DNA from: Chloroflexota bacterium
Lineage (GTDB): Bacteria; Chloroflexota; Dehalococcoidia; Lucifugimonadales; Lucifugimonadaceae
Direction: 5' to 3'
Length of the DNA stretch: 64,000 bases
Assembly: GCA_013204545.1 (NCBI GenBank)
Contig: JABMNN010000028.1
Coordinates: 1-64,000, forward strand
Part shown: positions 46,508 to 61,486 of the stretch, piece after piece
How positions within the stretch are numbered: position 1 is the stretch's first letter
How the letters are laid out: each line of letters begins with the position of its first letter
The notes under the pieces: generated by a model
Seen by the model: only the letters and a program-made list of their open reading frames with translations
Databases searched by the model: none
Told to the model about the DNA's origin: nothing
Translations under genes and position numbers: made by a program

Positions 46508-46927
46508 AGATCGAAAGTTTATTACGTCGCCGAAGCCATTCGCATGTCAAACGGGTAAGCCCAAATCATATTCATCTATCTGACTCAGTTTGGTTGATCT
46601 TGTGAAATAACTCACTGTGATAGTAATCGACTATGAATCAGTGTCGCTTGGATGGGCGGGTCGAATCGCTAGGTCGTTCGAATCCGAGAGGCGATCTTCT
46701 ATGATTATCGACGACCGAGACCATGAAGATGACGCTGTTGACTCAAAGTGACCCCGACGCCGTAGCGGTGTTTGACGATATCGGAGTCTCCCAATTGTAG
46801 GGATACTGTTTTTTCGACGACTTAGTTCACTTATTTGAAGGTCCAATTCAGGAGCGTCAAGTATTTGAAGGTGCACTATGAACTACACTCGCGGCTGAAC
46901 GAACTCCACTATGTTCATGAAAGGTCT
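46508..46927. other. Intergenic region without a convincing gene
   Basis: The divergent gap between the SGNH-type gene and the second aldolase shows only a 25-codon frame (46723-46800, MKMTLLTQSDPDAVAV) with no ribosome site, and an AT-containing leader before the aldolase. GTTCGAATCC (46676-46685) mimics a tRNA T-arm, but its flanks do not pair. Confidence 0.4.
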
Positions 46928-47710
46928 TTGAACTTGAAAGCTAATGCATTGAAGGTGGGTGTTGAACGGGGCGAATTGCAAATTGGCACATGGGTGAACA
47001 TGCTTCGCAATCCTGCGGCGCTGACGTTGTTCAAACAGGCAGGGTTGGATTTCGTTAGGCTCGATATGGAGCACTCTTCCCCGTCAATCGAAACTGTCGC
47101 AGACTTCGCTGTGATGGGGCGGGCGTTGGATTTGCCAGTGATGGTTCGGCCACCTGTGGCGAATCGCGAGTGGATAACTCGACTATTGGATATTGGAATT
47201 TACAATATTCATTGTCCACAGGTCGATACACCTGAACATGCCGCCGAAATTGTTGCTGCTTCTCGCTACACACCACGTGGTTCACGCGGAATGGGCAGTG
47301 CCACACCGGGTAATGACTTCGATATTTCCATGCCCGTCATGGATCGCCTTAAGTTTACGAACGATCAAGTGTTTATCACTGTGATGTTCGAGTCGGCACA
47401 AGCTTTCGAACATCTTGATGAGATTGCCTCGATGGACGGTATCGATGCATTGACCCTGGGTCCCCAAGATCTTGCACAGGATTTAGGTGTGTTTGGTACA
47501 CCCGATCAGGATCGAGTGCTCGATGAGAAACGAACTCAGATCGTCGAAGCGGCAAATAAGTATGGTAAGACGTGCGCTATGTTGGTCGGCTCGGCGGAAC
47601 AAGCTCGAAAGTGGCGTGATGCTGGGGTGTTGTTGGTGAACTATTCGACTGAGGTCAATGTACTGTTGGACGGCTATCGCTCGGCTCTAGGTGAGATACG
47701 TGGCTCATAG
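46928..47710 (+). CDS. HpcH/HpaI-family aldolase (second copy)
   Basis: This is a class II pyruvate aldolase of about 260 residues. I start at TTG 46928 (NLKANALKVGVERGELQIGTWVNM) because GAAAGG lies four bases upstream; the frame is open back to 46835 but the extra residues are not family-like. Motifs: FVRLDMEHSSPSIET, VMVRPP with its substrate Arg, IYNIHCPQVDTPEHA, GSRGMGSATPGNDF (an expanded RG loop), VMFESAQAFEHLDEIASM with the metal Glu, and IDALTLGPQDLAQDLG with the metal Asp. It differs clearly from the copy at 21916, so the two probably have different substrates. Confidence 0.85.
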   Translation: MNLKANALKVGVERGELQIGTWVNMLRNPAALTLFKQAGLDFVRLDMEHSSPSIETVADFAVMGRALDLPVMVRPPVANREWITRLLDIGIYNIHCPQVDTPEHAAEIVAASRYTPRGSRGMGSATPGNDFDISMPVMDRLKFTNDQVFITVMFESAQAFEHLDEIASMDGIDALTLGPQDLAQDLGVFGTPDQDRVLDEKRTQIVEAANKYGKTCAMLVGSAEQARKWRDAGVLLVNYSTEVNVLLDGYRSALGEIRGS

Positions 47711-47756
47711 CCCGTTCTTGAACACCATAGCGGGTGATCCATAAGGAGATCGCTAA

Positions 47757-47943
47757 GTGTTCTATTACGCAATCGATGTCATCCGCATGAGCTTCACGTC
47801 TAGCGTCCTATATATTCGCGATGCTCCGCAGTTCATTAACTTGAAGGTGAACTGTGAACTTCTGATGGTATTTTGAAGACCCAGATGGAAATCAACTGGC
47901 GATAATGAGCGAGCAGGGATATCTACAGAATCGTTCAATGTGA
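47757..47943 (+). pseudogene. Remnant of a VOC/glyoxalase-fold gene
   Basis: A strong AAGGAGAT ribosome site (from 47742) precedes GTG 47757, which opens VFYYAIDVIRMSF, the usual first strand of a VOC protein. After about 50 bases the homology is lost. From 47866 another frame reads WYFEDPDGNQLAIMSEQGYLQ to TGA 47943, the typical final strand (W.F.DPDGN...). Roughly 80 central codons are missing, so the gene is dead. It probably once followed the aldolase gene. Confidence 0.65.
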
Positions 47944-47983
47944 GATTACTCAGGCAGGCGAGACGATCAAATATTGGCGACCG

Positions 47984-48142
47984 CTAAAAAATGAAATTCA
48001 GCCGGATAGTAATCTCGTTCGTTTCTAGGCTGATGTCTTCGATTACTCCTGTTGCGATCGTGCTTCCACCAAATTCGACCTCAGCTACGTTGAACATGGC
48101 AAGGTTTACTGTGACTATTTGGCTTAGTTGCAAATCGGGCAC
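47984..48142 (-). CDS. Possible 52-residue small protein, unknown
   Basis: From GTG 48142 (or TTG 48154) a frame runs to TAG 47984. It encodes PDLQLSQIVTVNLAMFNV, then EVEFGGSTIATGVIEDISLE and a strand-like end ITIRLNFIF. The alternation of hydrophobic and polar residues suggests beta-structure, and the sequence looks more protein-like than the opposite strand. The ribosome site is weak (GGAAAG at an unusual distance). No family recognised. Confidence 0.3.
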   Translation of the reverse strand: MPDLQLSQIVTVNLAMFNVAEVEFGGSTIATGVIEDISLETNEITIRLNFIF

Positions 48143-48236
48143 CGTATCACCCAACTTTCCGCGCTTTACTTATGTGGCAACAGCATAGCGTACTCATCCA
48201 GTCCTGATCTGTTTTTCGCATACATGTGATAGAAGA

Positions 48237-48289
48237 GTGCGGTTGATACCGCACCCAACTACACTGTCATTGTTGGGGCGTGACCCCAA
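48237..48289 (+). promoter_or_regulatory. Two hairpins in the leader of the enolase-superfamily gene
   Basis: GTGCGGT (48237-48243) pairs with ACCGCAC (48248-48254) around TGAT. TTGGGG (48273-48278) pairs with CCCCAA (48284-48289) around CGTGA. Both stems are perfect and lie 41-94 bases before the start at 48331. They may control transcript stability or attenuation; no known riboswitch is recognised and no T-run follows either. Confidence 0.4.
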
Positions 48290-48330
48290 TACATGTTGAA
48301 TGCTGCAGAAGTACGCCGGAGGGTCTCATC

Positions 48331-49494
48331 TTGAAAGTTACCGCGATAGAAACCTTTGCAGTCGAAGGACTGAACTCACCTTTGCTGTTTTGCGCGATCA
48401 GAACTGATGAAGGTATTACGGGATATTCAGAATTCGGCGAGGGGCGGCTCGCTCATGGTATGCGAGGTCTTGTCGAGGATCTTTCGATCTATGTGATCGG
48501 AAAAGATCCGCGAGCAGTTGAAGCTCACTATATCCAGATGATTCGGGCGAGCCGAATGGCATACGGTGGAGCTACATGGCAGGCTATCGCCGGCATCGAA
48601 CTTGCTTTGTGGGACATCAAGGGCAAAGCACTAGGAGTCCCTGTTTATGAGCTCGTGGGCGGTGCCACGAGAACACATCAGAAAGTCTATTGGTCGCACA
48701 TGCTGAGTTATCAGGTGGGGGCATACGGGCGTCTAGGCACCGATCCAGTTCGCTCATACGACGATGTTCGAAAGGTTGTTGCTCAGGCTGACGAGTGGGG
48801 GTACGACACGTTCAAGACAAATATCCAGCTACCCGGTGATCCGTTCGTGGGACTTCAGCAGGGGAGATCAGGCCCACACGACCAGACTCTAACTAAAGAA
48901 ATTCTCGGTGCTGCGGTGAAGCAATTCGAGGTAATTCGTGACGAAGTAGGCCCTGACATGGGGCTTTGTCTCGATGTTAACGAGCACTTTAAGGCGGATG
49001 GTCATATTCGGCTTGCTCAGGCGTTAGAGCAGTTCAATCTGACATGGATGGAGTTGGATAATCTGGATGCCGTCAGTGTCCGAATGGTGAAAGATTCGAC
49101 TACTACGCCGATTTGTACAGGTGAACAGAGGCTGGGGCCGACGAATTATCGTGACCTGTTTGAGGCACGTGCAATGGATGTTTGCAAGGTCGACGTTCAA
49201 TGGCAGGGATTTATACCGTCACGCAGGGTTGCGAACATGGCCGAGGTGTACGACATAAACATCGCTCCACACAATTTTAACGGACATCTCTCAACGTTCC
49301 AGACGATGAATCTTTGTGCATCGGTTACAAATGTGAAGATCAGTGAGAGCGATCCGGTTCAGGTTCCGTGGCGTGATGAACTAGTCACCGATCTGCCGGA
49401 TATCAACCATGGTGTGATCACAATCCCAACCAAGCCGGGGTGGGGGACTAACCTCGATGAAGCTGCTTTGAAGAAGTACGCAGTAAAAAACTGA
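48331..49494 (+). CDS. Enolase-superfamily acid-sugar dehydratase (mandelate racemase-like)
   Basis: The start is TTG 48331, supported by GGAGGG (48318-48323) seven bases upstream; this gives 387 residues beginning LKVTAIETFAVEG. Enolase-superfamily motifs: the capping domain with GGATWQAIAGIELALWDIKGKALGVPVYELVGG, a Lys in the YDTFKTN strand, metal ligands in LCLDVNEHF (Asp), WMELDN (Glu) and CTGEQ (Glu), and a base-type His in APHNFNGHLST. The NEHF and APHN motifs resemble sugar-acid dehydratases such as those for galactonate or related acids. This fits the other sugar-acid enzymes in the window, but the exact substrate is not resolved. Confidence 0.88.
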   Translation: MKVTAIETFAVEGLNSPLLFCAIRTDEGITGYSEFGEGRLAHGMRGLVEDLSIYVIGKDPRAVEAHYIQMIRASRMAYGGATWQAIAGIELALWDIKGKALGVPVYELVGGATRTHQKVYWSHMLSYQVGAYGRLGTDPVRSYDDVRKVVAQADEWGYDTFKTNIQLPGDPFVGLQQGRSGPHDQTLTKEILGAAVKQFEVIRDEVGPDMGLCLDVNEHFKADGHIRLAQALEQFNLTWMELDNLDAVSVRMVKDSTTTPICTGEQRLGPTNYRDLFEARAMDVCKVDVQWQGFIPSRRVANMAEVYDINIAPHNFNGHLSTFQTMNLCASVTNVKISESDPVQVPWRDELVTDLPDINHGVITIPTKPGWGTNLDEAALKKYAVKN

Positions 49495-49717
49495 AACCGA
49501 ACTGAACCGTATATCTCGCTAGAAAAACACAGTGATATTGATGTGACGACTAGTTGGCATTTTCAGGCATGTCGTAAATTGCTGTCTTGAGCGTCTGAAA
49601 GATTGTATTTTGAATGAAATGTTCGCTGAGTTAGCACGTGCAGTGTCTCGAAAAATTGAGCGAACAGGTTATGACTCTATCGTCGAGGAAATTTCGTTCT
49701 TGCTGCGAATGTTGTTG
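49495..49717. other. Intergenic gap with a doubtful small frame
   Basis: A 44-codon plus-strand frame (49619-49753) reads FAELARAVSRKIERTGYDSI and ends at TAG 49753, overlapping the 3' end of the next, opposite gene by 36 bases. Its helix-like sequence is plausible, but there is no ribosome site, so I do not call it a gene. Confidence 0.25.
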
Positions 49718-49942
49718 TCAGATAACGGGGAGTGCATCGAAAAGCGTGTTTAGTACGTAGTTGATGCCGTACATAAAACCTGACGCGAAGATGAGCGCCA
49801 TGATGATCAGTATGATCGTACGCTTTCTGACGAAAGTTTTCGGCTTGTCATCAATGCCGAGGGCTTTTTCGATTTTGCCGAGCCGCCCTTCGATAGCTTG
49901 TAGCTGAAGGACGATCGGGTGTGGCTGTTCTACGCTGCTCAT
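49718..49942 (-). CDS. Small membrane protein with coiled-coil N-terminus
   Basis: A 74-residue protein: residues 9-30 (IVLQLQAIEGRLGKIEKAL) form an amphipathic helix, followed by a basic RKR and one membrane helix (about 43-62, TIILIIMALIFASGFMYG). No function can be assigned; such proteins occur as membrane tethers. It is transcribed away from the alpha/beta hydrolase gene. The reading frame is intact and bounded by a stop at 49718. Confidence 0.6.
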   Translation of the reverse strand: MSSVEQPHPIVLQLQAIEGRLGKIEKALGIDDKPKTFVRKRTIILIIMALIFASGFMYGINYVLNTLFDALPVI

Positions 49943-50079
49943 TACCTTCTAATTGTTAGTCGCTTGCCTGTTCAAAATCATGTGTGAGAACTACGCGTAT
50001 TGAGTGACCGAGCAAGATTCGGTCAACGTTCGCACACAGACCTATTTGCCATATGAAACACCATGAGAGTATCGAGTGA

Positions 50080-50895
50080 ATGGACATTTCAAAATCTACC
50101 GATTCATTTGACGGTGTTCGAATTACTTATGACGCTCAGCCATTGAGGTCGAGACAGATTTCTCCCGCAGGGGACTTCGCACTTGTATTCGTCCACGGTT
50201 GGTCGTGTAATAGAAGTCATTGGCTCGAGCAGGTGGCTGCATTTTCTGATCGCTATCGAGTGATCGCTATCGATCTGGCAGGCCATGGTGATTCTGGACT
50301 GGGGCGGACCGAGTATTCGATGGAGTCGTTTGCCCTAGATGTTAAAGCTGTACTTGATATCGAACAGATAAGACGTGCCGTTCTGGTCGGTCATTCGATG
50401 GGCGGAATGGTTATTCTCCATGCAGCGCGGATGTTGGGTGAACGGGTGGTTGGGCTGGTGGGTGCTGACACGTTCAAGTACCTGCGGGAGGATCCTAGAG
50501 TCGGTAAACAAGCGGCACAGTGGCAGGAATTGGTTGATGACTACGAGTCAGCTATCGCTTCGACAGTTTCGAATATGTTTACCGATAGCAGCCCTGATGT
50601 GCTGAGACGAAGCATTACCGATGGCATGGTCTCCATACCGCGTGAGGTTGCAATCGGTGCGATGAAGGGGATGGCTGACGATGCCCCGTTGTTCGATGTG
50701 GCGGTGAGTTTGAACATTCCAAAACTTACGATCAATGCGACTGGTCGGCAGATGGACGAATCGGCGGCTAGCGACGCGGGTATCAAGATTCGTCACATGC
50801 CATCCACCGGACATTTCGTCATGAATGAAGATCCGGTCGAATTTAATCGATTGCTGGACGAGGCACTTGAACGAATACCCACCGGACAGGCATAG
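50080..50895 (+). CDS. Alpha/beta-fold hydrolase
   Basis: This 271-residue esterase/hydrolase has the oxyanion strand ALVFVHGWSCNRSHW, the nucleophile elbow VGHSMGGM with Ser106, a strand VIAIDLAGHGDSG, and His245 in STGHFVMNEDP at the C-terminus. The acid is probably Asp130 in VGADTFKY or a later residue. There is no signal peptide. It lies 41 bases before an aldo/keto reductase gene in the same direction, which suggests joint use on a small ester or lactone. Substrate unknown. Confidence 0.88.
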   Translation: MDISKSTDSFDGVRITYDAQPLRSRQISPAGDFALVFVHGWSCNRSHWLEQVAAFSDRYRVIAIDLAGHGDSGLGRTEYSMESFALDVKAVLDIEQIRRAVLVGHSMGGMVILHAARMLGERVVGLVGADTFKYLREDPRVGKQAAQWQELVDDYESAIASTVSNMFTDSSPDVLRRSITDGMVSIPREVAIGAMKGMADDAPLFDVAVSLNIPKLTINATGRQMDESAASDAGIKIRHMPSTGHFVMNEDPVEFNRLLDEALERIPTGQA

Positions 50896-50936
50896 ACTGC
50901 ACGATTCCTATTTTTGGGTGAAGGTGAAGGACAAAC

Positions 50937-51845
50937 ATGCAAACGCGACGACTTGGAAAAGATGGACCTGATGTATCTGTGATTTGCCTTGGTGCCTGGC
51001 CTCTCGGTGGTGGTATGGGGGTAATACCAGACGATCAGGCAATTGCCACGATCCACGCTTCGATCGATGCTGGCGCGAATTTCATCGACACTGCCGAGGG
51101 GTATCGGACAAGTGAGGGAGTGCTGGGAAAGGCACTTCGAGGTCGACGTGATGATGTGATTTTGGCGACAAAGCTGTCAGGTGATCATTCATTGGAGCAC
51201 ATGACGTTGGCTGTTGAGATCAGCCTGAGTTCATTGGGTACCGACTACATCGATCTGTATCAATTGCACAGTCCTAGACCTTCCACGCCGATCGAAGCAA
51301 CGATGGCGAACCTAGAGAAGCTTCGTGATGCCGGTAAGATTCGTTATATAGGTGTGTCGAACTTCTCTGGCGAACAACATCGTGAAGCGGCTCAATACGG
51401 TGTCATCAATAGCTCGCAACCTCGGTACAACATGCTGTACAGGCAGCCGGAAGAAGAAATCCTTCCAGCTTGTTTGGAAATAGGAATCGGAGTTATACCT
51501 CACTCACCTCTCGCAAAGGCGATGCTCACCGGCAAGTATCGTCCGGGTCATGTATTCCCAAACGATGACGAACGAGTAAACAAACCCGAGTTCGAGGACG
51601 ATGTGTTCATCCCCGCGATGATGGTCGTAGAGAAGTTGCTCGAATGGGCTGGTGATCACGGACACGAAGGGGCTCAACTCGCGATAGCGTGGACTCTCGC
51701 TCATCCTGCGGTTACAAGCTGTATCGTCGGAGCTAAGACACCTGAACAGGCGGTATACAACGCTGCTGCCGGAGAGTGGTCGCTTGCCGAGAACGATATG
51801 TCGGAGATAGCAGAAATTCTTGGAGATTTTCAACTAACGGTTTAG
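50937..51845 (+). CDS. Aldo/keto reductase
   Basis: This 302-residue NADPH-dependent carbonyl reductase has a (beta/alpha)8 barrel. The catalytic tetrad is visible: D51 and Y56 in FIDTAEGYRTSEG, K79 in LATKLSG and H111 in YQLHSPRP. The cofactor-binding region near the end includes VTSCIVGAKTPEQ. The start MQTRRLGKDGPDVSVICLG follows the family's RLG..G..VS..GLG pattern, with AAGG upstream. Probably co-transcribed with the hydrolase upstream. The substrate is not resolvable. Confidence 0.9.
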   Translation: MQTRRLGKDGPDVSVICLGAWPLGGGMGVIPDDQAIATIHASIDAGANFIDTAEGYRTSEGVLGKALRGRRDDVILATKLSGDHSLEHMTLAVEISLSSLGTDYIDLYQLHSPRPSTPIEATMANLEKLRDAGKIRYIGVSNFSGEQHREAAQYGVINSSQPRYNMLYRQPEEEILPACLEIGIGVIPHSPLAKAMLTGKYRPGHVFPNDDERVNKPEFEDDVFIPAMMVVEKLLEWAGDHGHEGAQLAIAWTLAHPAVTSCIVGAKTPEQAVYNAAAGEWSLAENDMSEIAEILGDFQLTV

Positions 51846-51933
51846 GCGTGCCTCGGTAAAAGAAACACGGCTTTCGCTATGCCCACTGATTTCTCCCCTG
51901 GACACAGCCCGGCTCGTACATTGTGCCAACTCG

Positions 51934-52836
51934 TTAGCGGAATGCCAGTGTTACGAAGATTCCTGCAACACTGAGCGCTGCACCACCGAGCGCAAATCGG
52001 TTGAGACGCTCGCGAAGTAGTACCGTGGCAAAAACGACCGCCCACATCGGCGATGTGTTAATGAGCACAACAACGACACCAGGTGGGGCATTGTCGAGCG
52101 CCACCACAAACGAGAGCGCACTCACAGCGAACAAAATACCTCCGAGGGTCAAACGAGTTCCGTTTCCCTTGAATACTCGTGTGATTCTGGCGGATGGGAA
52201 CGCAATATTAATTCCTATAAACAGAATTGCCGGAACGAGGTTTCGGATGGTAGCGGCTGCAACAGGGGGAGTTTCTTCGAGTCCGATTACGGTGGATAGG
52301 AAACCACCCGCCCAGAGGAATGAAGTAGTGATCCCAAGACCGATACCGATGTAATCGCCGCGAGGTTTACGTTTTCGTTTGGCGCCGATGTCGGTCGTCG
52401 TGATGGATTTATCGGCAGGTTGCCAGTTGAGAAGGATCACTCCGCCGATGATTAGAACCGCTCCGCCGATCACTCCCGCCTGTGGTGTGTCGCCAAGAAA
52501 TAGCCAACCGGCAAGAACCGAGATGCTGATGAAGATACTTTGGGTGGTTGGGTAGACTTTGCTGACGGTGCTACGAGAGAGGGCCAGCCAGAACACGAGT
52601 GCCCCGGATGTGTTCATAAGCGAACCGCCTACCAAATAGAGGGCAGATCGGAGTTGGATGTGAACGAGTTCGCCTAACTGTCCGATGACGAGTCCGACTG
52701 TCAGCAGAAATAACAGCCCGATCCATACTTGGACAGTGACGATGTGTGTCGGCTTGACGTTTTTGCCTACGCCTTTGGTGATAACCCCTGTGAGGGCCCA
52801 GACGACGGCATTTGCGAGGGCTGCTAACTCGCCCAT
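51934..52836 (-). CDS. EamA-family (DMT) transporter
   Basis: A 300-residue integral membrane protein with about ten helices arranged as two EamA repeats (about 1-140 and 155-300). The first repeat includes LANAVVWALTGVITKGVG and GGSLMNTSGALVFWLALSRSTV; the second includes GLGITTSFLWAGGFLSTV and ALDNAPPGVVVVLINTSPMWAV. A cytoplasmic linker with KRKRKPRGD joins them. Such proteins export metabolites or amino acids; the direction and substrate are not known. Convergent with the aldo/keto reductase gene. Confidence 0.87.
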   Translation of the reverse strand: MGELAALANAVVWALTGVITKGVGKNVKPTHIVTVQVWIGLLFLLTVGLVIGQLGELVHIQLRSALYLVGGSLMNTSGALVFWLALSRSTVSKVYPTTQSIFISISVLAGWLFLGDTPQAGVIGGAVLIIGGVILLNWQPADKSITTTDIGAKRKRKPRGDYIGIGLGITTSFLWAGGFLSTVIGLEETPPVAAATIRNLVPAILFIGINIAFPSARITRVFKGNGTRLTLGGILFAVSALSFVVALDNAPPGVVVVLINTSPMWAVVFATVLLRERLNRFALGGAALSVAGIFVTLAFR

Positions 52837-52937
52837 TTGGTTTTTCGCGAGATCAAATTTTTAGGAAAGTGCGTGATTAACGCCAAAGTGTCGGCGCAGA
52901 ATCATTCTGCACCGGCATTGTGTAGCTTCGATAGCCC

Positions 52938-53408
52938 TTAATTCGCAGATTGTTTGGCGAGGAATTCTACGAAACTATCGAGCGTCATGGTCCAACCCAT
53001 AAGCATTCCACCCTGTTCATTCATGTTCATTTGCTCAGTTGAGTCATGGACGATCAACATCGTGAGCTTTGTCTCGTCGCCTTGATCTTCAAACAAAAGC
53101 GTTACAGTGACTTGATTGCTCGTATCGCCACCGGCGAATTCAGTCCAGGCAATCTTTTCACCGGGGACGATTTCGGTGTACTTGTTTTCGACCGAATGTT
53201 CGCTGACGCTACCTGGCATTTCCATGACGTATTTCCACGAACCACCGACCGAAAAGTCGCGCTCAATAGTTCTGGTCGTGACCATGGTCGGTCCCCACCA
53301 TTTGTCGATGTGCTCAGAGTCGGTCCACGCGTCGTAAACGAGCGTGCGTGGAGCATCGAATACTCGTTCGATAACGAGTGTACGTTCTGGATGTTCGATG
53401 GTTGCCAT
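52938..53408 (-). CDS. SRPBCC/AHSA1-family protein
   Basis: The 156-residue protein has the SRPBCC helix-grip fold of the Aha1-C-terminal/CalC group: LVIERVFDAPRTLVYDAWTD, HIDKWWGP, FSVGGSWKYVMEMP and the ending GGMLMGWTMTLDSFVEFL. These proteins bind hydrophobic ligands in a cavity. The gene lies directly downstream of an ArsR-type regulator, a pairing that is widespread and suggests that the regulator controls it, although the role remains unknown in most bacteria. A repeat-derived hairpin separates the two. Confidence 0.9.
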   Translation of the reverse strand: MATIEHPERTLVIERVFDAPRTLVYDAWTDSEHIDKWWGPTMVTTRTIERDFSVGGSWKYVMEMPGSVSEHSVENKYTEIVPGEKIAWTEFAGGDTSNQVTVTLLFEDQGDETKLTMLIVHDSTEQMNMNEQGGMLMGWTMTLDSFVEFLAKQSAN

Positions 53409-53429
53409 GGTGGTATTTCTCAGGGCACT

Positions 53430-53504
53430 TTCGGATGACTTGGTAGCGAAGGCAATCTAGCCCCTCTTATCCCTCCAGCCAGAAGGCGGAATAAGAGGGG
53501 CTAG
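53430..53504. repeat. Dispersed intergenic repeat, copy B, with long inverted repeat
   Basis: The left part TCGGATGACTTGGTAGCG and GGCAATCTA matches copies A and C. A 14-base perfect inverted repeat CTAGCCCCTCTTAT (53457-53470) and ATAAGAGGGGCTAG (53491-53504) surrounds the inner GAAGGCGGA core. The right arm contains the arsR stop codon (53501-53503), so the hairpin forms at the very end of that transcript and separates arsR from the SRPBCC gene. Confidence 0.65.
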
Positions 53505-53842
53505 TCGTTTTGTTGAAGTTTAGCTAGATACAGGTCGAGACGATCGAGTCGTTCTTCCCAGTGTTGGCGATACTGGTCCAGCCACTCAGAAATTTCTTTC
53601 ATTGGTGCTGCATTGAGTTTACGGGGTCGCCATTGGGCCGACTTACTGCGTGCCACCAGTCCTGCGCTTTCGAGGACTTTCAGATGTTTTGAGATCGCTG
53701 GCATCGTCATACTGAACGGTTTCGCGATTTCAGACACTGAAGCTTCACCGGACGTTAGGCGAGATAATATCGCCCGACGTGTCGGATCGGCTAAAGCAGC
53801 AAAGGTTTTCGAAAGCACGTCGGCTGACATGTACTTAACCAT
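53501..53842 (-). CDS. ArsR-family transcriptional regulator
   Basis: A 113-residue winged helix-turn-helix protein. The core is FAALADPTRRAILSRLTSG (10-28), then EASVSEIAKPFSMTMPAISKHLKVLESAGLVARSKSA, whose recognition helix MTMPAISKHLKVL is typical of the ArsR/SdpR type. The C-terminal part (LDQYRQHWEERLDRLDLYL) is a dimerisation helix as in regulators paired with SRPBCC proteins. No cysteine metal site is present, so it probably senses something other than a metal. It starts upstream of the SRPBCC gene and shares its direction. Confidence 0.92.
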   Translation of the reverse strand: MVKYMSADVLSKTFAALADPTRRAILSRLTSGEASVSEIAKPFSMTMPAISKHLKVLESAGLVARSKSAQWRPRKLNAAPMKEISEWLDQYRQHWEERLDRLDLYLAKLQQND

Positions 53843-53967
53843 ATAGTTATATAACCGATTGGTAAAGTGTCTATGGGTTAAATTTCTTGAATGTTATTGC
53901 GTGATTGTATTGACGTGCTAGGCTGTCGGTCGCTTTGATTATGAGATCGACTAGGAGCTACCGCGGT

Positions 53968-54918
53968 ATGAGCCAGACCCACGAAATCGTTGCTTCGACC
54001 TATCACCACACGTTTGCCAAGTTTCATCCGATTTTGGCGACCATTCAGCCGGGCGATACCGTGGTTACGAAAACATTGGATTCGGGTGGTCAAGATTTTC
54101 ATGGTGCCCAGCTTGCCACGCGTGGGAATCCTTTGACGGGTCCTTTCTTTATCGAAGGTGCGGAGCCGGGTGACTCGATTTCGGTTCACCTGTCTAAACT
54201 CACGCTCAATCGTGACTGGGGCTACACGTCTATTCGTCTGGGGTTGGTGGCGCTTAATCCCGACCATGTGGAGAACGTATTTTCCAGCGCCTATAAGATG
54301 GATCTGGTACGTAAGGATCGTTCCGACTTGCTGCCGTGGGACATCGATCTCGACCGCAACGTTGTGAGTCCGCGCTACCCCGAAAGTCCGTCGCAGGTTT
54401 TGGAATTCGCAGCACAACCGATGCTTGGTTGTATTGGGGTTGTACCTGAAGGCGACTTCACTCCCACATCGGGTCCGTCGGGATCGTGGGGAGGCAACAT
54501 CGACTACAACATGATTCGCGAAGGATCGACTGTGCATTTGCCCGTGTCGCAGGCCGGCGCGTTTTTGTATGTCGGCGACGGACATGCATTGCAGGGCGAT
54601 GGCGAACCATTGGGTAACGGGATTGAGACCTCGATGGACGTCGAGTTTTCGGTTACGTTGCATAAGGGGCGGGAGTTGACGGGGCCTCGGGTTGAGACTG
54701 ACGACTACATTATTAGCGTTGGCAGTCAGCCAGAGTTTTCTAGCTCACTGAATCGTGGACTTCAGATGGCGACCAGCGATATGGTCACATGGCTCGCTGC
54801 CGATTATGGAATGGAAGACTGGGCAGCGCACACGTTGGTCGGCATGGTCGGCCAGTACGACGTAGTCACGGTCGCTGGCAGCATGGCACTGAGAGTGCCG
54901 CGGGAGTATTTGGGTTAG
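53968..54918 (+). CDS. Acetamidase/formamidase family protein
   Basis: The 316-residue hydrolase of the FmdA/AmdA family releases ammonia from formamide or acetamide-like substrates. I start at ATG 53968 (SQTHEIVASTYHHTF) because AGGAG lies ten bases upstream. Motifs: TIQPGDTVVTKTLDSGGQD (27-45), NPLTGPFFIEGAEPGDSI, MLGCIGVVPEG, PSGSWGGNIDYNMI and GAFLYVGDGHALQGDGE with its metal-ligand style Asp/His. The length is typical of the family. It is convergent with the Mo-oxidoreductase gene 18 bases away. Actual substrate unknown. Confidence 0.9.
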   Translation: MSQTHEIVASTYHHTFAKFHPILATIQPGDTVVTKTLDSGGQDFHGAQLATRGNPLTGPFFIEGAEPGDSISVHLSKLTLNRDWGYTSIRLGLVALNPDHVENVFSSAYKMDLVRKDRSDLLPWDIDLDRNVVSPRYPESPSQVLEFAAQPMLGCIGVVPEGDFTPTSGPSGSWGGNIDYNMIREGSTVHLPVSQAGAFLYVGDGHALQGDGEPLGNGIETSMDVEFSVTLHKGRELTGPRVETDDYIISVGSQPEFSSSLNRGLQMATSDMVTWLAADYGMEDWAAHTLVGMVGQYDVVTVAGSMALRVPREYLG

Positions 54919-54936
54919 AGGCCCTGGACGTTAGAC

Positions 54937-56646
54937 CTAGGCTCGCTTTGAGTGGAGGCCGCGGGCGCCGGATGGGCGGTTGCCTCGCTCTTCTTCGATC
55001 TGGGGTGTTCCATCACCTTCAGCACAGCGAACCTCGAAGAAATGGCCGCCCGATGAGAATGGCCAGTCGTATCGCCAAACAACCCATGTTGTCCCAGACA
55101 ATGGACTCCTCAACGAAGCTTCTTCCCACGGGCCGTTGTCGACGCGAATTTCGACTTTGGATATTCCACGGGCACCAGCGAAGGCTATACCGCCAACTGG
55201 CACGAGTGTTTGACCGTCTTTCTCGTACATCGATTTAGCTGCGACAGTGTCGATCACAGATGTTGCTTGGACCTGCGCTACCGCATCCCATCCTCTTTGG
55301 ACCCAATAGCCCTCACGGGGTTCGTCGGTGACTTTGATCGAGGTAATCCATCGAGGCTGTTTCATGCCGTACCGGTCGGGACGCCAAATACGTAGCGGGA
55401 AGCCATGGTCTAGCGGAAGCGGTTTACCGTCCCAGGCGTAGCACAGCATCATTCGTTCGTCGGATTGAACCTCGTTGAGGTCTACCAATTCATGAAAACC
55501 GTCGGCGCTGGAGATATCGAGATACCGTGCCTCAGCGTTTGGCTGAACTTGAGCGAGAACATCTCGGATGCTCACTCCTGTCCATTCGGTGGTGCCGATC
55601 AGAGAAGAGCCGACTCGCCCAGATATGCACGACAACGTGACGAAATGGCTCATAGGCTCGAAATTGTCACGTAAGTCACTAAGCGTTAGTGACGCGGGAT
55701 TTGCGATGAGTCCAGAGATGGGCAACGTCCAAGTCGAACCGTCGATCTCGATGTGGCGAGTGCCGATCGAAACGCTGTAATGATCTTCAAGAGGGGTGTA
55801 CTCGGGGCGGGTGCCAATGGCTGCTCGCACAGGATCATTATCGTTCGGCAATATTATTCGATTGGGGTCTAGCGATTGATCCGTGTCAGATATTGAAAGT
55901 GCGGCATCGAGTTCGCGGCGTGCAGCCCCCGATAGCAGAGAGCCGAGGCCAGTGCTGGCGACGGTGATTACTGCCGCAGCTGAACCTACAGTAATGACGA
56001 ACTGGCGTCGTGACATTGTTGAACCCGAAGGAGGGTCAATCTGCGATATCACCGGTTCGCTCGTGCTGGAACTCAGGCGGGCATACAGTTCACTGAGAGC
56101 CCATCCCCACACAACGAACGCTCCGAGCAACCAAATGAAAACAACCGCTGAAGGTACCGAAGAACCACCGATTCCGACGCTCACGGTTGCTGTGATTACT
56201 CCAAATAAAGCACCAATGCCCGTGCCTATTAAGCGAGCTTGTTGGCGATCCATGTTTCTGGCCACACGGAAGTAGATTGCAGCTACTGCGATGCCGGCAA
56301 ACAAGAACTGGAGGACAGCTATGGCTCGTTCGGCTGTCTTGGCTGAATCCGCTACTCCCATACCAAAGAACCGTAACGTGTCGATCATCACGTCGATCCC
56401 ATAGGTAACGAGATACCCTGGCAGTTCGCGAGTCAACCGATCAAATACGTCGTAGGGGGCGAATGGTAATTCTGCCAGTTCAGACGCGAGGTACAGCACG
56501 CCAAGCAGTGGCGCAGTGAGCAGCGCTCCAACGACTAAACCCATACGAATTCCGTGGATCTTCATATCGTGCCTCTCGAACACATTGCTCGACGAATCGG
56601 CGGCTGAAGTAAGTTCATGACCGCTCAGTGATCCATTAGGGGTCAC
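54937..56646 (-). CDS. Polytopic membrane molybdopterin oxidoreductase (sulfite-oxidase fold) with internal twin-arginine motif
   Basis: The 569-residue protein fuses a membrane domain of about four helices (33-55, 106-126, 139-160, 164-187) to a sulfite-oxidase-type Mo-cofactor domain. Between them lies MSRRQFVITVGSAAAVITVA (211-230), a twin-arginine (SRRxF) motif leading to a further hydrophobic segment. The likely Mo ligand is C340 in HFVTLSCISGRVG. GTTEWTGVSIRDVL, LPLDHGFPLRIWRPDRYG and WRYDWPFSSGG follow as in YedY/sulfite oxidase relatives. The layout suggests Sec insertion of the first helices and Tat export of the folded cofactor domain. Electron partner unknown. Confidence 0.87.
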   Translation of the reverse strand: MTPNGSLSGHELTSAADSSSNVFERHDMKIHGIRMGLVVGALLTAPLLGVLYLASELAELPFAPYDVFDRLTRELPGYLVTYGIDVMIDTLRFFGMGVADSAKTAERAIAVLQFLFAGIAVAAIYFRVARNMDRQQARLIGTGIGALFGVITATVSVGIGGSSVPSAVVFIWLLGAFVVWGWALSELYARLSSSTSEPVISQIDPPSGSTMSRRQFVITVGSAAAVITVASTGLGSLLSGAARRELDAALSISDTDQSLDPNRIILPNDNDPVRAAIGTRPEYTPLEDHYSVSIGTRHIEIDGSTWTLPISGLIANPASLTLSDLRDNFEPMSHFVTLSCISGRVGSSLIGTTEWTGVSIRDVLAQVQPNAEARYLDISSADGFHELVDLNEVQSDERMMLCYAWDGKPLPLDHGFPLRIWRPDRYGMKQPRWITSIKVTDEPREGYWVQRGWDAVAQVQATSVIDTVAAKSMYEKDGQTLVPVGGIAFAGARGISKVEIRVDNGPWEEASLRSPLSGTTWVVWRYDWPFSSGGHFFEVRCAEGDGTPQIEEERGNRPSGARGLHSKRA

Positions 56647-56759
56647 TCACTTAACGTACACCGCTAACCCGTCGACAGTTTTGAGTTGAGGCTCTGGAAT
56701 TCGAAATCGTAAGACTCTTGTAAGGATTAGAGGGGGATTTGAGGCGTGGGTGTGTGGGA

Positions 56760-57389
56760 TTAGGTGTTGGCGTTGACCCAGCTTTGGGCGGCTTGGAGCA
56801 TGAAAAGGACTGCGGTGGCGCCGGGATCTTGAACACCGATGGAGCGTTCGCCGAGCCAACCTGCGCGGGAAACTCTTGATTGCATTTCGATAGTTGCGGT
56901 GGTTCCTGCTTGGCACGCGTCTACTGCGGCATCAGTCGCTTCTTTCAGTGACTTTCCTGAGGTGTGCGCCTCGTCGAAGGCTTCTATTGCAGGGGAGAGC
57001 GCGTCGAGCAAGGTCTTGTCACCGATCTTCGCCTTGCCGCGATCCATGAGACCTTGAAGGGCGGCGCGTCCGATAGCTGCGATGTCTGCTGCACCGACAT
57101 CTTCTCTATCCTTGACCACAGCACCGCCGCGCATCATCGCCGTCGCAAACAAGACGCCGAACGTCGAAGCTGCTGCACGGTTGAACGCCATCCCGGATCG
57201 TGCAAGTTGATTACTAGCTGGCGTTCCTTGGAGATCGCGCGAAACGGACATCACCGCTTCCATACCGCGGGTTATCGTGATGCCGAGATCCCCATCACCG
57301 ATCTTAGCGTCTAGATCTCGCAATATTTCGGCTTGCGGAACGACTTCGTCTGAGATCGCTTTGAATATGCCGAGGACTTCGTCTGTCAT
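56760..57389 (-). CDS. dhaL: Dihydroxyacetone kinase subunit L
   Basis: DhaL binds ADP/ATP and phosphorylates dihydroxyacetone held by DhaK. The 209-residue protein has the Mg-nucleotide Asp cluster DAKIGDGDLGITITRG (D27, D32 and D34 region), then the phosphate-binding GMAFNRAAASTFGVLFATAMMRGG, and the end WLGERSIGVQDPGATAVLFML, all typical. The dhaK gene lies 256 bases upstream in the same direction. No DhaM phosphotransferase subunit is found in the window, so the phosphoryl donor may be ATP or a protein encoded elsewhere. Confidence 0.94.
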   Translation of the reverse strand: MTDEVLGIFKAISDEVVPQAEILRDLDAKIGDGDLGITITRGMEAVMSVSRDLQGTPASNQLARSGMAFNRAAASTFGVLFATAMMRGGAVVKDREDVGAADIAAIGRAALQGLMDRGKAKIGDKTLLDALSPAIEAFDEAHTSGKSLKEATDAAVDACQAGTTATIEMQSRVSRAGWLGERSIGVQDPGATAVLFMLQAAQSWVNANT

Positions 57390-57645
57390 GAATTTCTTTC
57401 TGAGTTTTCTGGGCTTTCTTAGACCGACCGGAACTGCGTTCGTAGCGCATAACGTATCTCCTGCCCATTATTCCCGTCCGGTCACGGAAGGAGGATGATC
57501 GTGACGATTCACTCGTCCGGGGGAGAGACGCATTACGGCGTGATTGAGACGTAAATACCGCCGAGCCGAGCCGTGTGCCACGGTGTGCTTTGATGGGTTG
57601 TTTGATCCAGCACGATTCGACTCGACGATACGAAATCAGATCTGG

Positions 57646-58665
57646 TTAACGCCCGAAATGCTGCGTCAGGAGCGGAGAGTATGCAGGAGCATCGAGTAGC
57701 TTCACCATGTCATCGTCGACGAGCTTGCAAATGCTGATCGACGCCCCGGCCATTTCCATCGACGTTGCATATTCGCCCACTAGTGTGCGGTGAATTTTTA
57801 TACCTCTGTCCCTCAGGATCTCTTCAGCCTTGTTGAAGAGAATGTAGAGCTCTTCGGGCGCTGTTGCACCCAGACTGTTTACCAGAACGGCTGCGGTGTC
57901 GCCTGACGAGAATGGAAGATCCGGCAGGATACGATCGAGCATCTTGCCAGCGATCTCATCGGCGGTAAGCAACGGACTTACCTCTACACCGGGTTCACCG
58001 TGGATACCCATTCCGAGTTCCATCTGTCCCTCAGCCACCGAGAAACCAGGGATGCCGGCTGCGGGGATGGTCGTGCCGGAAAGAGCGACACCCATGCTGC
58101 GGGTGTTGAATATGGCTTTCTCAGCGACGGAGTGGACAGCGTCTAGATCACGTCCCTCTTCGGCTGCCGCCCCGGCAATCTTGAATCCGAAAACGATACC
58201 TGCCACACCACGACGTCGATTAATTTCGGCGATAGGAGCCGAGGTCACATCGTCACGTCCGAGGGTGGTCTTCACGGTGATGCCTTCAACCTCTGCCATC
58301 TCGGAAGCCATATCGAAGTTCATCGTGTCGCCAGAGTAGTTTCCGTAGAGATACAGAACACCAGCACCGCCATCGATGGCCTTGGTGACATCGAGCATGT
58401 CATCGGAAGATGGCGATGAGAAAACGTTGCCGACGCAGGCACCGGTGGCGAGTCCTTTTCCTACGTAGCCGAGGAAAAGAGGGAGGTGTCCAGAGCCACC
58501 GCCTGTTGCGATGCCGACTTTGCCAGCGACAGGTGCATCGGCTCTGATTAGCGCTCGAGTGCTGCCATCGATGCGTTTCAGATAGTCGGGGAAGGCTTTG
58601 AGTATTCCGGCAATCGTCTGGTCCTCGACGAGTTCCGGGTCGTTGATGATCTTGCGCATTGCCAT
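57646..58665 (-). CDS. dhaK: Dihydroxyacetone kinase subunit K
   Basis: DhaK covalently binds dihydroxyacetone through a hemiaminal on a His. The 339-residue protein has VGIATGGGSGHLPLFLGYVGKGL (50-72), GNVFSSPSSDDML, YLYGNYSGDTMNF and the active-site His H222 in GMGIHGEPGVEV. The length is full. The substrate might be dihydroxyacetone or, as in related kinases of the same family, a similar ketose such as a tetrulose. It pairs with dhaL; the 256-base gap between them has no gene. A DHDPS-like lyase lies on the same strand further upstream. Confidence 0.94.
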   Translation of the reverse strand: MAMRKIINDPELVEDQTIAGILKAFPDYLKRIDGSTRALIRADAPVAGKVGIATGGGSGHLPLFLGYVGKGLATGACVGNVFSSPSSDDMLDVTKAIDGGAGVLYLYGNYSGDTMNFDMASEMAEVEGITVKTTLGRDDVTSAPIAEINRRRGVAGIVFGFKIAGAAAEEGRDLDAVHSVAEKAIFNTRSMGVALSGTTIPAAGIPGFSVAEGQMELGMGIHGEPGVEVSPLLTADEIAGKMLDRILPDLPFSSGDTAAVLVNSLGATAPEELYILFNKAEEILRDRGIKIHRTLVGEYATSMEMAGASISICKLVDDDMVKLLDAPAYSPLLTQHFGR

Positions 58666-58781
58666 CGTATATCTACCTCTGAGTTGCTAGGAGTGAATCA
58701 TGCGGAACTCTATTTCGGGTCGGACGTGGTGTCAATTTGTACGACTGATTGAATGTGTGAGGATACGAGGAATGTTGGGTA

Positions 58782-59351
58782 TTAAATCAGGCCATCGACG
58801 ATGAGCCAGATTCCGAATATGAGGAATATCGTTGCTGAAATTAGTTTGATGGGTCGTTCGGGGAGATGGCGTCCTATGACAAGACCGAGGACGATGGCGA
58901 GAGCATCGGACACGACCATTCCGGCGGTCGATCCGAGCCATGTGCCTAAGAAACCGGTGTACTGAGTTGCCACGGTTATTGTTGCGAACATCGTTTTGTC
59001 GCCTAGTTCAGCGAGGAAGAACGCAACTGACACGATAAGAAACGGTCCGAAAAATCCACGTTTATTAGATTCGTTTTCGTCATCGTCAAGTGAATCACCT
59101 CGAAGTGTCCACAGTCCGAAGATGATGAACGCGATACCCGCTGCTAGAGCGATTGTGGTCTCGGAAAGGCTGTCACCAGCTAGTCGTCCAACGCCAACTG
59201 ATCCAGCGTGGATTACGAGGGTTGCCGTAGTGATACCTGCGAGCACTTGCCAGACTTTGTATTTGGTGGCGAAGGCTAGTGCTACGAGTTGAGATTTATC
59301 GCCCATTTCCGCTATTGCGATGATGGCGAATGATGCGAAGAAGGCTTCCAT
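58782..59351 (-). CDS. GDT1/UPF0016-family cation transporter
   Basis: The 189-residue membrane protein has about six helices in two repeats, each bearing the family signature ExGDK(S/T): AEMGDKSQLVALAFATKY near residue 15 and AELGDKTMFATITVATQY near residue 115. These proteins (yeast Gdt1, bacterial MneA/Mnx) export Mn(2+) or Ca(2+). An acidic linker DSLDDDENES divides the repeats. I looked for a yybP-ykoY Mn riboswitch in the leader and did not recognise one. Transcribed on the minus strand behind repeat copy C. Confidence 0.9.
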   Translation of the reverse strand: MEAFFASFAIIAIAEMGDKSQLVALAFATKYKVWQVLAGITTATLVIHAGSVGVGRLAGDSLSETTIALAAGIAFIIFGLWTLRGDSLDDDENESNKRGFFGPFLIVSVAFFLAELGDKTMFATITVATQYTGFLGTWLGSTAGMVVSDALAIVLGLVIGRHLPERPIKLISATIFLIFGIWLIVDGLI

Positions 59352-59472
59352 CGGGTTCCTTTAGGATATTTTCGACCGAAGAATATTGCGCCTTTTGCGC
59401 GGGCGGGCATATGGGGTTGAGGCGCTGAGACGGGTGTTTTGTGTGAGGGTGTTGGGCGTGATTTGCTCCGGG

Positions 59473-59564
59473 CGTCGTCGGACGACTTGGTCGCAGCGGC
59501 AATCTACCTATCCTCTAACCCCTTCCTGAAGGAAGGCGGACTGGTAGTAGCAGTGGGTTAGAGG
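59473..59564. repeat. Dispersed intergenic repeat, copy C, with inverted repeat
   Basis: It begins CGTCGTCGGACGACTTGG and continues with a GCGGCAATCTACC segment shared with copies A and B. The hairpin core CCTTCC-TGAA-GGAAGG is followed by CGGACTGG. Outer arms CCTCTAACCC (59512-59521) and GGGTTAGAGG (59555-59564) are inverted repeats; the right arm contains the stop codon of the DHDPS-like gene (59558-59560). As in copy B, it lies between two minus-strand genes. Confidence 0.65.
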
Positions 59565-60457
59565 GATGCTTGTTGGATTAGTCGGTCGATTTCTTGGCGG
59601 GTTTCTTCGTCTAGTTCGAACATGTACGGCTTGCGACGATGATCGGTTGTGAAGAGTCCTCGTTTTTTGAGTATGTATTTTTCGACGGCAAGGAAGCCGT
59701 CTAACCCTGCCTGGAGTTGCAGCGACACAAGGGCGCAAAGTGGAAAATACGCGTTGTAGGCTCGGTCGTCATCACCAGCTTCAAGGGCAGACCAGACGGC
59801 GATTACGGTATCGAGAAACTCCATGCCGGGCATCGTTCCCTTGATACCACGTCGGAAACTATCGATTATAGATATCCCGCCTGAGCCCTCGAAAATCCTT
59901 GCCTTACCGCCTGTCGCATCTCGAAGCTGACTGAGCTTCGGGCCGAGTGGAGCAGCTTCCGGCTTGAACATGATTTTCTGATCGCCGAACGTATCGAGAA
60001 GCTCGACATTCAGCTGCATCGGAATTTCCTGACCGACGTATGACGACGCATCTTGGATGATTACCGGAACATCAACACACCGGACGATGCTTGAGAAATA
60101 GTCTCTGAGATTCGCCAAAGAAGTTTTAGTTGTAACCGGCGGGATCACCATCAAAGCGTCACAGCCGTACGACGTAGCCTTTTCAGCGTACGAGCAAGCC
60201 TGACTTGTTGACTCTGCCCCGACACCAGCCACAAATACACGGTTGCCGCGATCAACCGATCCGATCTCACGGTGTAGTTGATTTCGTTCATCCTCGGAAA
60301 GCCTGAGAAGCTCCGAAACCATGCCGGTGCAATAGCCGTTGATATCACGCTGTGATGCCCACTCAAGCTCACGGTGGAGACTTGTCACGTCGAGCTTGTC
60401 ATCGTCCGTGAACGGGGTGTGAACGATCGGAAGGACGCCCTGAATACTTGTTGGCAT
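59558..60457 (-). CDS. DHDPS/NAL-superfamily lyase (second copy)
   Basis: A 299-residue (beta/alpha)8 class I aldolase-type protein. The Schiff-base lysine is K165 in IMFKPEAAP. The loop at 41-48 (GYCTGMVSEL) replaces the GTTGE carboxylate loop of DapA, and the usual Tyr strand reads VIIQDASSYVG, so the conserved tyrosine position is changed or shifted to Y140. This argues against lysine biosynthesis and for another 2-oxo acid substrate. It is quite different from the copy at 15957. The terminal stop lies inside the inverted repeat of repeat copy C. Confidence 0.82.
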   Translation of the reverse strand: MPTSIQGVLPIVHTPFTDDDKLDVTSLHRELEWASQRDINGYCTGMVSELLRLSEDERNQLHREIGSVDRGNRVFVAGVGAESTSQACSYAEKATSYGCDALMVIPPVTTKTSLANLRDYFSSIVRCVDVPVIIQDASSYVGQEIPMQLNVELLDTFGDQKIMFKPEAAPLGPKLSQLRDATGGKARIFEGSGGISIIDSFRRGIKGTMPGMEFLDTVIAVWSALEAGDDDRAYNAYFPLCALVSLQLQAGLDGFLAVEKYILKKRGLFTTDHRRKPYMFELDEETRQEIDRLIQQASL

Positions 60458-60791
60458 ATGTTGTGAGATCGACGGTTGTCGTGGTTTTTGGTTGGGTTGA
60501 GAAGGGTGGTGCTTAACTAGGCACGAATTAACGGCTCGATGATATCAAGCGAGAGCATGGCTGAGGTTGAATGTGGACGCGTTGAATAGGAAACGCGGGG
60601 CTGCATGAGCTGGCGCAGGGTCAGACGGATTGGAAGTGCGTTTGTGAATCGCACATCTACGGGCGAGCGGTCGCTGATTCGGCTTATGTTTTAGTGGGTC
60701 CGAATAGTTCTGGGTGTCCTCGAAAGTCGCGGTCACACGTCGCCATCGCGTAATGTGCCGGGCATATAAGGCACACATGCATTTGACTCAG
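60458..60791. other. Gene-poor stretch upstream of the DHDPS-like gene
   Basis: No supportable gene. It contains short stems, for example CGCGTT (about 60578) with AACGCG and TGCG with CGCA (about 60637-60654). A 77-codon minus-strand frame at 60545-60778 is rich in Arg, Pro and His, has no ribosome site, and resembles non-coding translation. Confidence 0.4.
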
Positions 60792-60830: not shown

Positions 60831-61486
60831 TAACGCTGACTCGACCTCGTCATCTTGAACATCATGCTTCGACTAGCTCGGCAACATGTTCAAGCCTTAT
60901 CGAAGGCTTCAGAAACTAACGAACCTGGTAAACGCGTGGGCTGCTATTCCACCCGTCATTTATTGGGATAACGAAGCTGTTAACATCGCCAACCTGATAA
61001 TGCACCTGTCGGAATCAGTGCGTGATTCGGTGAATGAGATTCCTGCTTTCGACCGACTTTCGATCTGGAATTCAACACCTGGGAGCCCCGATTAGCTCGG
61101 GGTAATTTTGGGCCGGGAGATTAGTCTCAGCCTGAGAGGTTTTGTTTGGATGTGCGACTAAAGCTTTATTGAACCGGTCGTCATTAGATGACTTAGGAAT
61201 TCGCTCTAATCTGCCTTTACTCCGGTCGTGCCTACGCACTTGGGAGATAGAGGACAACACACCTGAGATGTAAGCCGAAACTGAGCATTGGAAGCTCAGC
61301 CTTGATTCAGCGATCGCTCGCTATGCCGTCTGACCCTGCGCGAGGTCATGGAGCTTTCGCGGGCTAGTGACGCATTGGTCACTAAAGGTCAGTGTCGTCT
61401 GAAAAGGCGAATTTGGTCAAGCGCGGATGTCACTTAATTGTTTAACGGCGAAATCGGGAGTGAAGTGATCGTGATGGGGTTCTGTT
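60831..61486. other. Hairpin-rich intergenic region, possible structured RNA
   Basis: No gene can be supported; a 69-codon frame at 60886-61095 lacks a ribosome site. Stems: CTTGAACAT/ATGTTCAAG (60854-60862, 60886-60894) overlaps AAGCCTT/AAGGCTT (60892-60898, 60903-60909), so they cannot coexist. Others are CCCCGA/TCGGGG (61086-61102, then TAATTTT), TCTCA/TGAGA (61125-61137), CTGAGC/GCTCAG (61281-61299) and TAGTGAC/GTCACTA (61365-61384). No known RNA family is recognised. Confidence 0.4.

Follow-up and report, generated by a model that had tools for sequence, protein, structure and literature searches.

The window, the whole stretch of 64,000 nucleotides analysed here from contig JABMNN010000028.1 of a Chloroflexota bacterium, contains on its reverse strand a reading frame that is open over exactly the bounds given in Table 1. 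Within its 569 residues, the motif MSRRQFV occupies residues 211-217. Four hydropathy peaks (residues 35-53, 108-126, 139-157 and 166-184) lie ahead of the twin arginine, a fifth (216-234) follows it immediately, and a molybdenum-cofactor (Mo) domain follows in turn. The original prediction, that the motif comes after a polytopic part of the protein and not at its N-terminus, is thus borne out, and the arrangement of four helices, a twin arginine, a fifth helix and a Mo domain of the sulfite oxidase fold is real. An AlphaFold2 model built on a 52-row alignment (mean pLDDT 90.2, pTM 0.84) contains five long helices (Table 1), two short helices between helices 1 and 2 (residues 63-74 and 77-93), and a loop of 20 residues between helices 4 and 5.

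The ATG at 56565 is probably the true start, because the sequence GAGAGG at 56572-56577 lies six bases 5' of it and the ORFs of the closest relatives, L003 (61% identity) and L004 (56%), start near this point. The twin arginine would then be residues 186-187 of the shorter protein; the longer numbering is kept throughout. Translation might also begin at the ATG of Met211, which stands two residues ahead of the twin arginine, and would in that case yield a Tat substrate of its own, either soluble or held by a single anchor. We regard such an internal start as extremely improbable, since no Shine-Dalgarno-like sequence was seen by eye before this ATG and methionine occupies the column in only 6 of 90 homologues.

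Table 1 Features of the gene on the window (residue numbers refer to the 569-residue frame)
Feature	Position in window	Strand	Remarks
Whole ORF as listed	54937..56646	-	569 aa, GTG start
Gene from the likelier ATG, residue 28	54937..56565	-	542 aa; GAGAGG and starts of relatives' ORFs
Helix 1, residues 26-58	56473..56571	-	AlphaFold2 and hydropathy peak 35-53
Helix 2, residues 98-131	56254..56355	-	AlphaFold2; Lys103 near helix start, nearly invariant
Helix 3, residues 134-159	56170..56247	-	AlphaFold2 and hydropathy
Helix 4, residues 166-192	56071..56151	-	AlphaFold2 and hydropathy
Twin arginine R213-R214	56005..56010	-	Aligned in 90/90 homologues
Helix 5, residues 213-252, proposed Tat-dependent anchor	55891..56010	-	Arg-Arg 243-244 after hydrophobic core
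Mo-cofactor domain PF00174, residues 300-448	55303..55749	-	Pfam E 1.1e-35
Cys340, proposed Mo ligand	55627..55629	-	Aligned in 90/90
Trp453, at the place of SorA Tyr236	55288..55290	-	90/90, spacing from residue 448 kept
C-terminal Mo-co dimerisation-like domain, residues 456-569	54940..55281	-	PF03404 below threshold; fold match to the end of the model

Relatives of the window protein are common. At E ≤ 1e-30, a match was present in 208 of the 400 genomes surveyed from the phylum; within the class, 46 of 245 genomes had a match at E ≤ 1e-20, and among the six genomes listed from the same genus or family none did at this cut-off. Five named contigs with relatives are Chloroflexi, Dehalococcoidia or Anaerolineae metagenome-assembled genomes, whose best segments share 46-61% identity with the window protein. 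For comparison of individual positions, 121 ORFs found at E ≤ 1e-5 were reduced to 108 by deduplication and to 90, the window protein included, by a cut at ≥100 bits. The lowest homologue kept scored 126.2 bits, and the 18 ORFs dropped, mostly brought in as other Mo-domain proteins, scored at most 73.1 bits. Eleven of the 90 came from a plasmid collection and belong to Streptomyces, Arthrobacter, Rhodococcus, Nonomuraea, Thermus and haloarchaea. A Pfam scan of 78 members found PF00174 in all of them, Mo-co_dimer in 65 and Big_7 in 35, with eight further families in one member each.

We observed that both arginines of the motif are aligned in every one of the 90 homologues, as is Cys340, in a set whose members were chosen by similarity to the window protein, are mutually related and represent part of the genome-survey matches, so that members lacking the twin arginine are possibly under-sampled. 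As a background, the residue of the window protein occurs at a mean frequency of 18% over positions 35-200. A separate alignment of 78 sequences likewise had both arginines invariant, and in one of 52 sequences R214 was invariant and R213 nearly so. A hydrophobic stretch follows the pair in 89 of the 90. Two members are doubtful Tat sites: the Thermus homologue (L061), in which the arginines are aligned and helix 5 is broken or incomplete, and the Streptomyces mirabilis homologue (L064, within the 89), in which the aligned pair lacks a Tat-like context. Loss of the motif from orthologues, which would have spoken against a Tat signal, was therefore not what the alignment revealed. A twin arginine turned up in 36% of shuffled 32-residue loops; a single occurrence is thus unremarkable by chance, whereas its conservation is not.

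A profile of the membrane region searched against the sequences of solved structures gave 21 matches at E ≤ 1, all of them weak (from E 0.0038 upwards), of which 14 fell on the stretch of the twin arginine and helix 5. These included SCO3963, several Rieske subunits and ethylbenzene dehydrogenase, among others. Most of the 14 are presumably Tat substrates, and one, an ECA chain-length protein, presumably is not.

A dual Sec/Tat protein would be expected to have an even number of helices ahead of the twin arginine with its N-terminus inside, a conserved twin arginine right before the last helix, positive charges after that helix and a C-terminal cofactor-binding domain. Besides the motif described above, the window protein has four hydropathy peaks and a model of pLDDT about 90, and the charge bias of the family points in the same direction. 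Over the 90 homologues, the mean number of lysines plus arginines was 3.2 in the N-terminus (19 residues), 2.9 in the loop between helices 1 and 2 (44 residues), 2.4 between helices 2 and 3 (12 residues), 0.2 between helices 3 and 4 (11 residues) and 4.6 in the loop between helices 4 and 5 that holds the twin arginine (28 residues). As read from sequence, this pattern fits an N-in orientation with four helices ahead of the motif. A lysine or arginine lies within 25 residues after helix 5 in 87 of the 90, and the cofactor-binding domain is predicted by PF00174 in each of the members scanned.

The helix count and the hydrophobicity of the last helix, which should be low in such proteins, are less uniform. 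At a threshold of 1.3, five hydropathy peaks precede the twin arginine in 46 of the 90 sequences, four in 39 and other numbers in five. The extra peak probably corresponds to the stretch that forms the two short helices of the model; if this stretch spanned the membrane, the orientation would be altered. The mean hydropathy of helix 5 is the lowest of the five (1.79 vs 1.88-2.27), yet only 35 of 85 sequences have it as their least hydrophobic helix.

The twin arginine might instead be a topogenic positive patch only, with all five helices inserted by Sec or with the Mo domain left in the cytoplasm. The positive-inside rule does predict positive charges before a helix, and the shuffled loops make the pair itself likely by chance in such a loop. 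However, lysine would be tolerated in a mere patch, whereas both arginines are aligned in all 90 homologues, and a Mo-cofactor domain is expected to fold ahead of its export. Fusions of the Streptomyces protein Sco3746, moreover, lost export upon RR-to-KK substitution (PMC5449189). We give this explanation little probability.

The precedent for the layout was found by Tooke et al. in 2017, who searched for proteins with an even number of helices before a twin arginine and one after it and arrived at Sco3746. Sco3746 is described there (PMC5449189) as having five helices, a twin arginine ahead of the fifth and a Moco domain, with homologues in actinobacteria, firmicutes, chloroflexi and euryarchaeota, and cysteine labelling supported the five helices. 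When its membrane region was fused to MBP or AmiA, export took place only with an intact twin arginine and was abolished by the exchange to two lysines; the AmiA fusion was exported only in a tat+ strain, and the fusions remained inserted in the membrane when Tat was missing. The minimum length reported there for the loop before the last helix is 8 residues, compared with 20 in our model. The principle is repeated in two later reviews (PMC9360617, and PMC7317946 for Rieske proteins).

In the light of this work, the original proposal that Sec inserts the helices and Tat exports the Mo domain can be partly upheld by our analysis. The layout, the conservation of the twin arginine and the Sco3746 precedent argue for it, but the helix count is ambiguous in about half of the relatives and the last helix is often not the least hydrophobic. 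The Sec/Tat interpretation is probably right but not new. That the architecture would be a novelty, as the original prediction implied, does not stand, since the 2017 work described and tested it for a Mo domain, beyond the Rieske proteins, and named Chloroflexi homologues (PMC5449189), and since matches are common in the phylum. The targeting mechanism itself adds nothing new, as it is published for the same kind of cofactor.

One feature that sets the window family apart is its membrane bundle. The window protein has no histidine in residues 32-288. No histidine occurs in the best helix windows of 80 of the 90 relatives either, and in the other 10 relatives histidines are spread over helices 2-5. 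The conserved histidines in helices 2, 3 and 4 that mark the Sco3746 heme-Moco subfamily were not found in the window family. At E ≤ 0.01, Pfam recognised in the window protein only the Mo and dimerisation parts and assigned the four-helix bundle to no family. The membrane domain alone (residues 24-255, pLDDT 89.6) gave no Foldseek match at E ≤ 0.001, and its best VIA Z of 6.0 is below chance level for helical bundles; this lack of fold matches does not show a new fold. Our literature search, which covered titles and the beginnings of abstracts, found no family of such a layout without heme ligands. It is conceivable, if unlikely, that the bundle is an unrecognised heme-less electron-transfer or quinone-docking module through which a large branch of the sulfite oxidase fold, one not acting on sulfite, is connected to the respiratory chain.

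The protein could also be read as a fused MsrPQ, in which a membrane heme protein is joined to a methionine sulfoxide reductase, in line with the comparison of Sco3746 with MsrP/MsrQ in PMC5449189. The order of the parts is the same as in Sco3746, as described there, and a weak MsrP match (47.1 bits) was obtained. This score is far from the MsrP cut-off of 207 bits, the membrane histidine is absent from the 80 relatives mentioned above, and the alignments with the MsrP-like structures 1xdq and 1xdy stay within residues 266-493 of the model, although the protein runs to residue 569. A fusion of this kind is very improbable.

Six genomes of the phylum were searched for PF00174 and gave 29 loci; none of the 10 inspected is a fusion that has both membrane histidines and a twin arginine before the last helix. 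Another type of fused Mo protein was seen in three loci (L090-L092), with membrane histidines and with no twin arginine plus hydrophobic stretch ahead of the Mo domain. It represents a different family, matched by 656 plasmid records, 143 of which cover 80% or more of its length.

The part after helix 5 adopts a sulfite oxidase fold in the predicted model. Its Foldseek match to SorA (2blf) had E 7.4e-23, and VIA aligned the two over 303 residues with Z 29.5, an rmsd of 2.7 and 24% identity. Behind PF00174, PF03404 (Mo-co_dimer) reached 16.7 bits against a cut-off of 22.7. Cys340 is a residue that we take to be the Mo ligand, as in the sulfite oxidase family; the fold in the model and this cysteine place the domain in that family by prediction.

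The active site differs from that of sulfite oxidases. We take the roles of SorA Arg55, His57 and Tyr236 in the active site from general background and from the titles of PDB entries, which name R55M and Y236F (2ca3, 2c9x) as well as R138Q and Tyr322Phe of the chicken enzyme; 2ca4 is titled only 'mutant', and its chain has alanine at 57. The column of Arg55 (chicken Arg138), column 292, holds valine in 71, isoleucine in 17, methionine in one and threonine in one of the 90 homologues, and is uncertain by one place since the chicken sequence aligned with a gap beside Arg138. Of the neighbouring columns, 293 has no arginine and 291 has one in 21 of the 90. The column of Tyr236 (chicken Tyr322) is Trp453 and its counterparts without exception, and that of His57 has isoleucine in the window protein and lysine in 50 of the 90. 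Neither the active-site arginine nor the tyrosine of sulfite oxidases is kept in the window family. Because Arg55 is replaced by valine or isoleucine (88 of 90) and Tyr236 by tryptophan (90 of 90), ordinary sulfite oxidation by the window protein appears unlikely from its sequence. The label 'sulfite-oxidase-like' in the original prediction thus holds for the fold and not for the key active-site residues: the protein has the sulfite oxidase fold, and the enzyme itself is probably not a sulfite oxidase.

A true sulfite dehydrogenase, with the membrane bundle in place of the soluble cytochrome partner, would agree with the best fold and sequence matches, which are to sulfite dehydrogenases, and with SorA as the top NCBIfam score. 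The 88.8 bits for SorA fall well below the cut-off of 600, however, and the scores for SoxC (76.9 of 420), SorT (56.7 of 570) and MsrP also miss their cut-offs. With the two substitutions above and a bundle that has no conserved heme ligand, we consider a sulfite dehydrogenase quite improbable.

Taken together, we propose with good confidence that the gene encodes an integral membrane oxidoreductase whose Mo domain lies outside the cytoplasm and whose assembly takes two translocases. The Sec machinery would insert helices 1-4 with the N-terminus inside and would release helix 5, a segment of no more than moderate hydrophobicity with positive charges after it. The Mo domain would fold and take up its cofactor in the cytoplasm; Tat would then recognise R213-R214 and move the folded domain out, with helix 5 staying behind as an anchor. 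Less surely, electrons may be exchanged with a separate protein partner or a quinone, because no heme ligand is conserved in the membrane bundle, and sulfite, by the usual mechanism, would not be the substrate. In the host genome, genes for TatC and TatA adjoin on one contig (C74) and a gene for MoeA lies on another (C35). A second PF00174 protein of the host has 200 residues and no hydrophobic peaks.

The neighbours of the gene in the window are formamidase-like and DhaL/DhaK-like (named by eye). No conserved neighbourhood was seen, as the window and three relatives (L003, L004 and L007) have no common neighbour by eye. Comparison with a genome of the same genus (G541) showed collinearity on the left, over window positions 44091-53868, and a weak right anchor at 60574-60688 (104 bases, 72%, E 1.3e-6); in G541 the right anchor lies six bases further on, and the two abut within about 10 bases. 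Because nothing in G541 is collinear with the 6.7-kb block between them (53868-60574), in which the gene lies with its neighbours, the gene seems to sit in an accessory block that would have been gained here or lost in G541. In a search run without a positive control, six genomes from the genus and family contained nothing that matched the DhaK-like neighbour at E ≤ 1e-20. The GC content is 0.53-0.54 across 52-64 kb vs 0.49-0.52 before it. No tRNA was found at 52-64 kb, and no Rfam match in 44-64 kb.

Several short sequences in this region also occur in G541. One at 59462-59543 accounts for 24 of 41 G541 matches with 75-100% identity and looks like a dispersed repeat, and another at 48576-48699 accounts for 7 of the 41 and is a second possible dispersed repeat. 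At 61316-61357, 42 bases are 98% identical to G541, with few other matches around them. The homologue of Natronorubrum bangense (L124, 1353-2858), by comparison, lies amid the cytochrome c biogenesis genes CcdA, CcmE, CcsA and CcmD, a context that hints at a c-type cytochrome partner.

The architecture is real, conserved and common, and its mechanism is already explained by a close architectural counterpart in the literature. Judged from sequence, the window protein is a variant whose active site is altered and whose membrane part lacks the heme ligands. As a prediction, it carries the published handover from Sec to Tat over to a large family that has no heme ligands, occurs frequently in the phylum and is also present in actinobacterial and haloarchaeal records. 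Proteins of the window family that are annotated as sulfite oxidase or 'molybdopterin-dependent oxidoreductase' lack the catalytic tyrosine and arginine, and their annotation and substrate need testing.

Compared with known systems, the window protein resembles SorA (2blf) in the fold of its Mo and dimerisation-like domains, but SorA, a chain of 373 residues, has no counterpart of the membrane bundle, and its Arg55, His57 and Tyr236 are not kept. With MsrP (1xdq, 1xdy) it shares the core of the Mo domain, over 180-182 aligned residues; the membrane and Mo parts of MsrP/MsrQ are separate subunits (PMC5449189), and the window protein scores far under the MsrP cut-off. Actinobacterial Rieske proteins (Sco2149; Keller 2012 and Tooke 2017, as cited in PMC7317946) share with it a polytopic membrane part whose last helix follows a twin arginine and is integrated by Tat once Sec has inserted the others; they differ from the window protein in carrying an iron-sulfur domain and in having three helices, or occasionally five (PMC7317946). 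The likeness is closest in layout to the Sco3746 type as described, with four helices, a twin arginine, a fifth helix and a C-terminal Moco domain, a conserved twin arginine and positive charges after helix 5. By that published description, the homologues of Sco3746 differ in their conserved histidines in helices 2, 3 and 4, proposed to serve two hemes b (PMC5449189), where the window protein has none.
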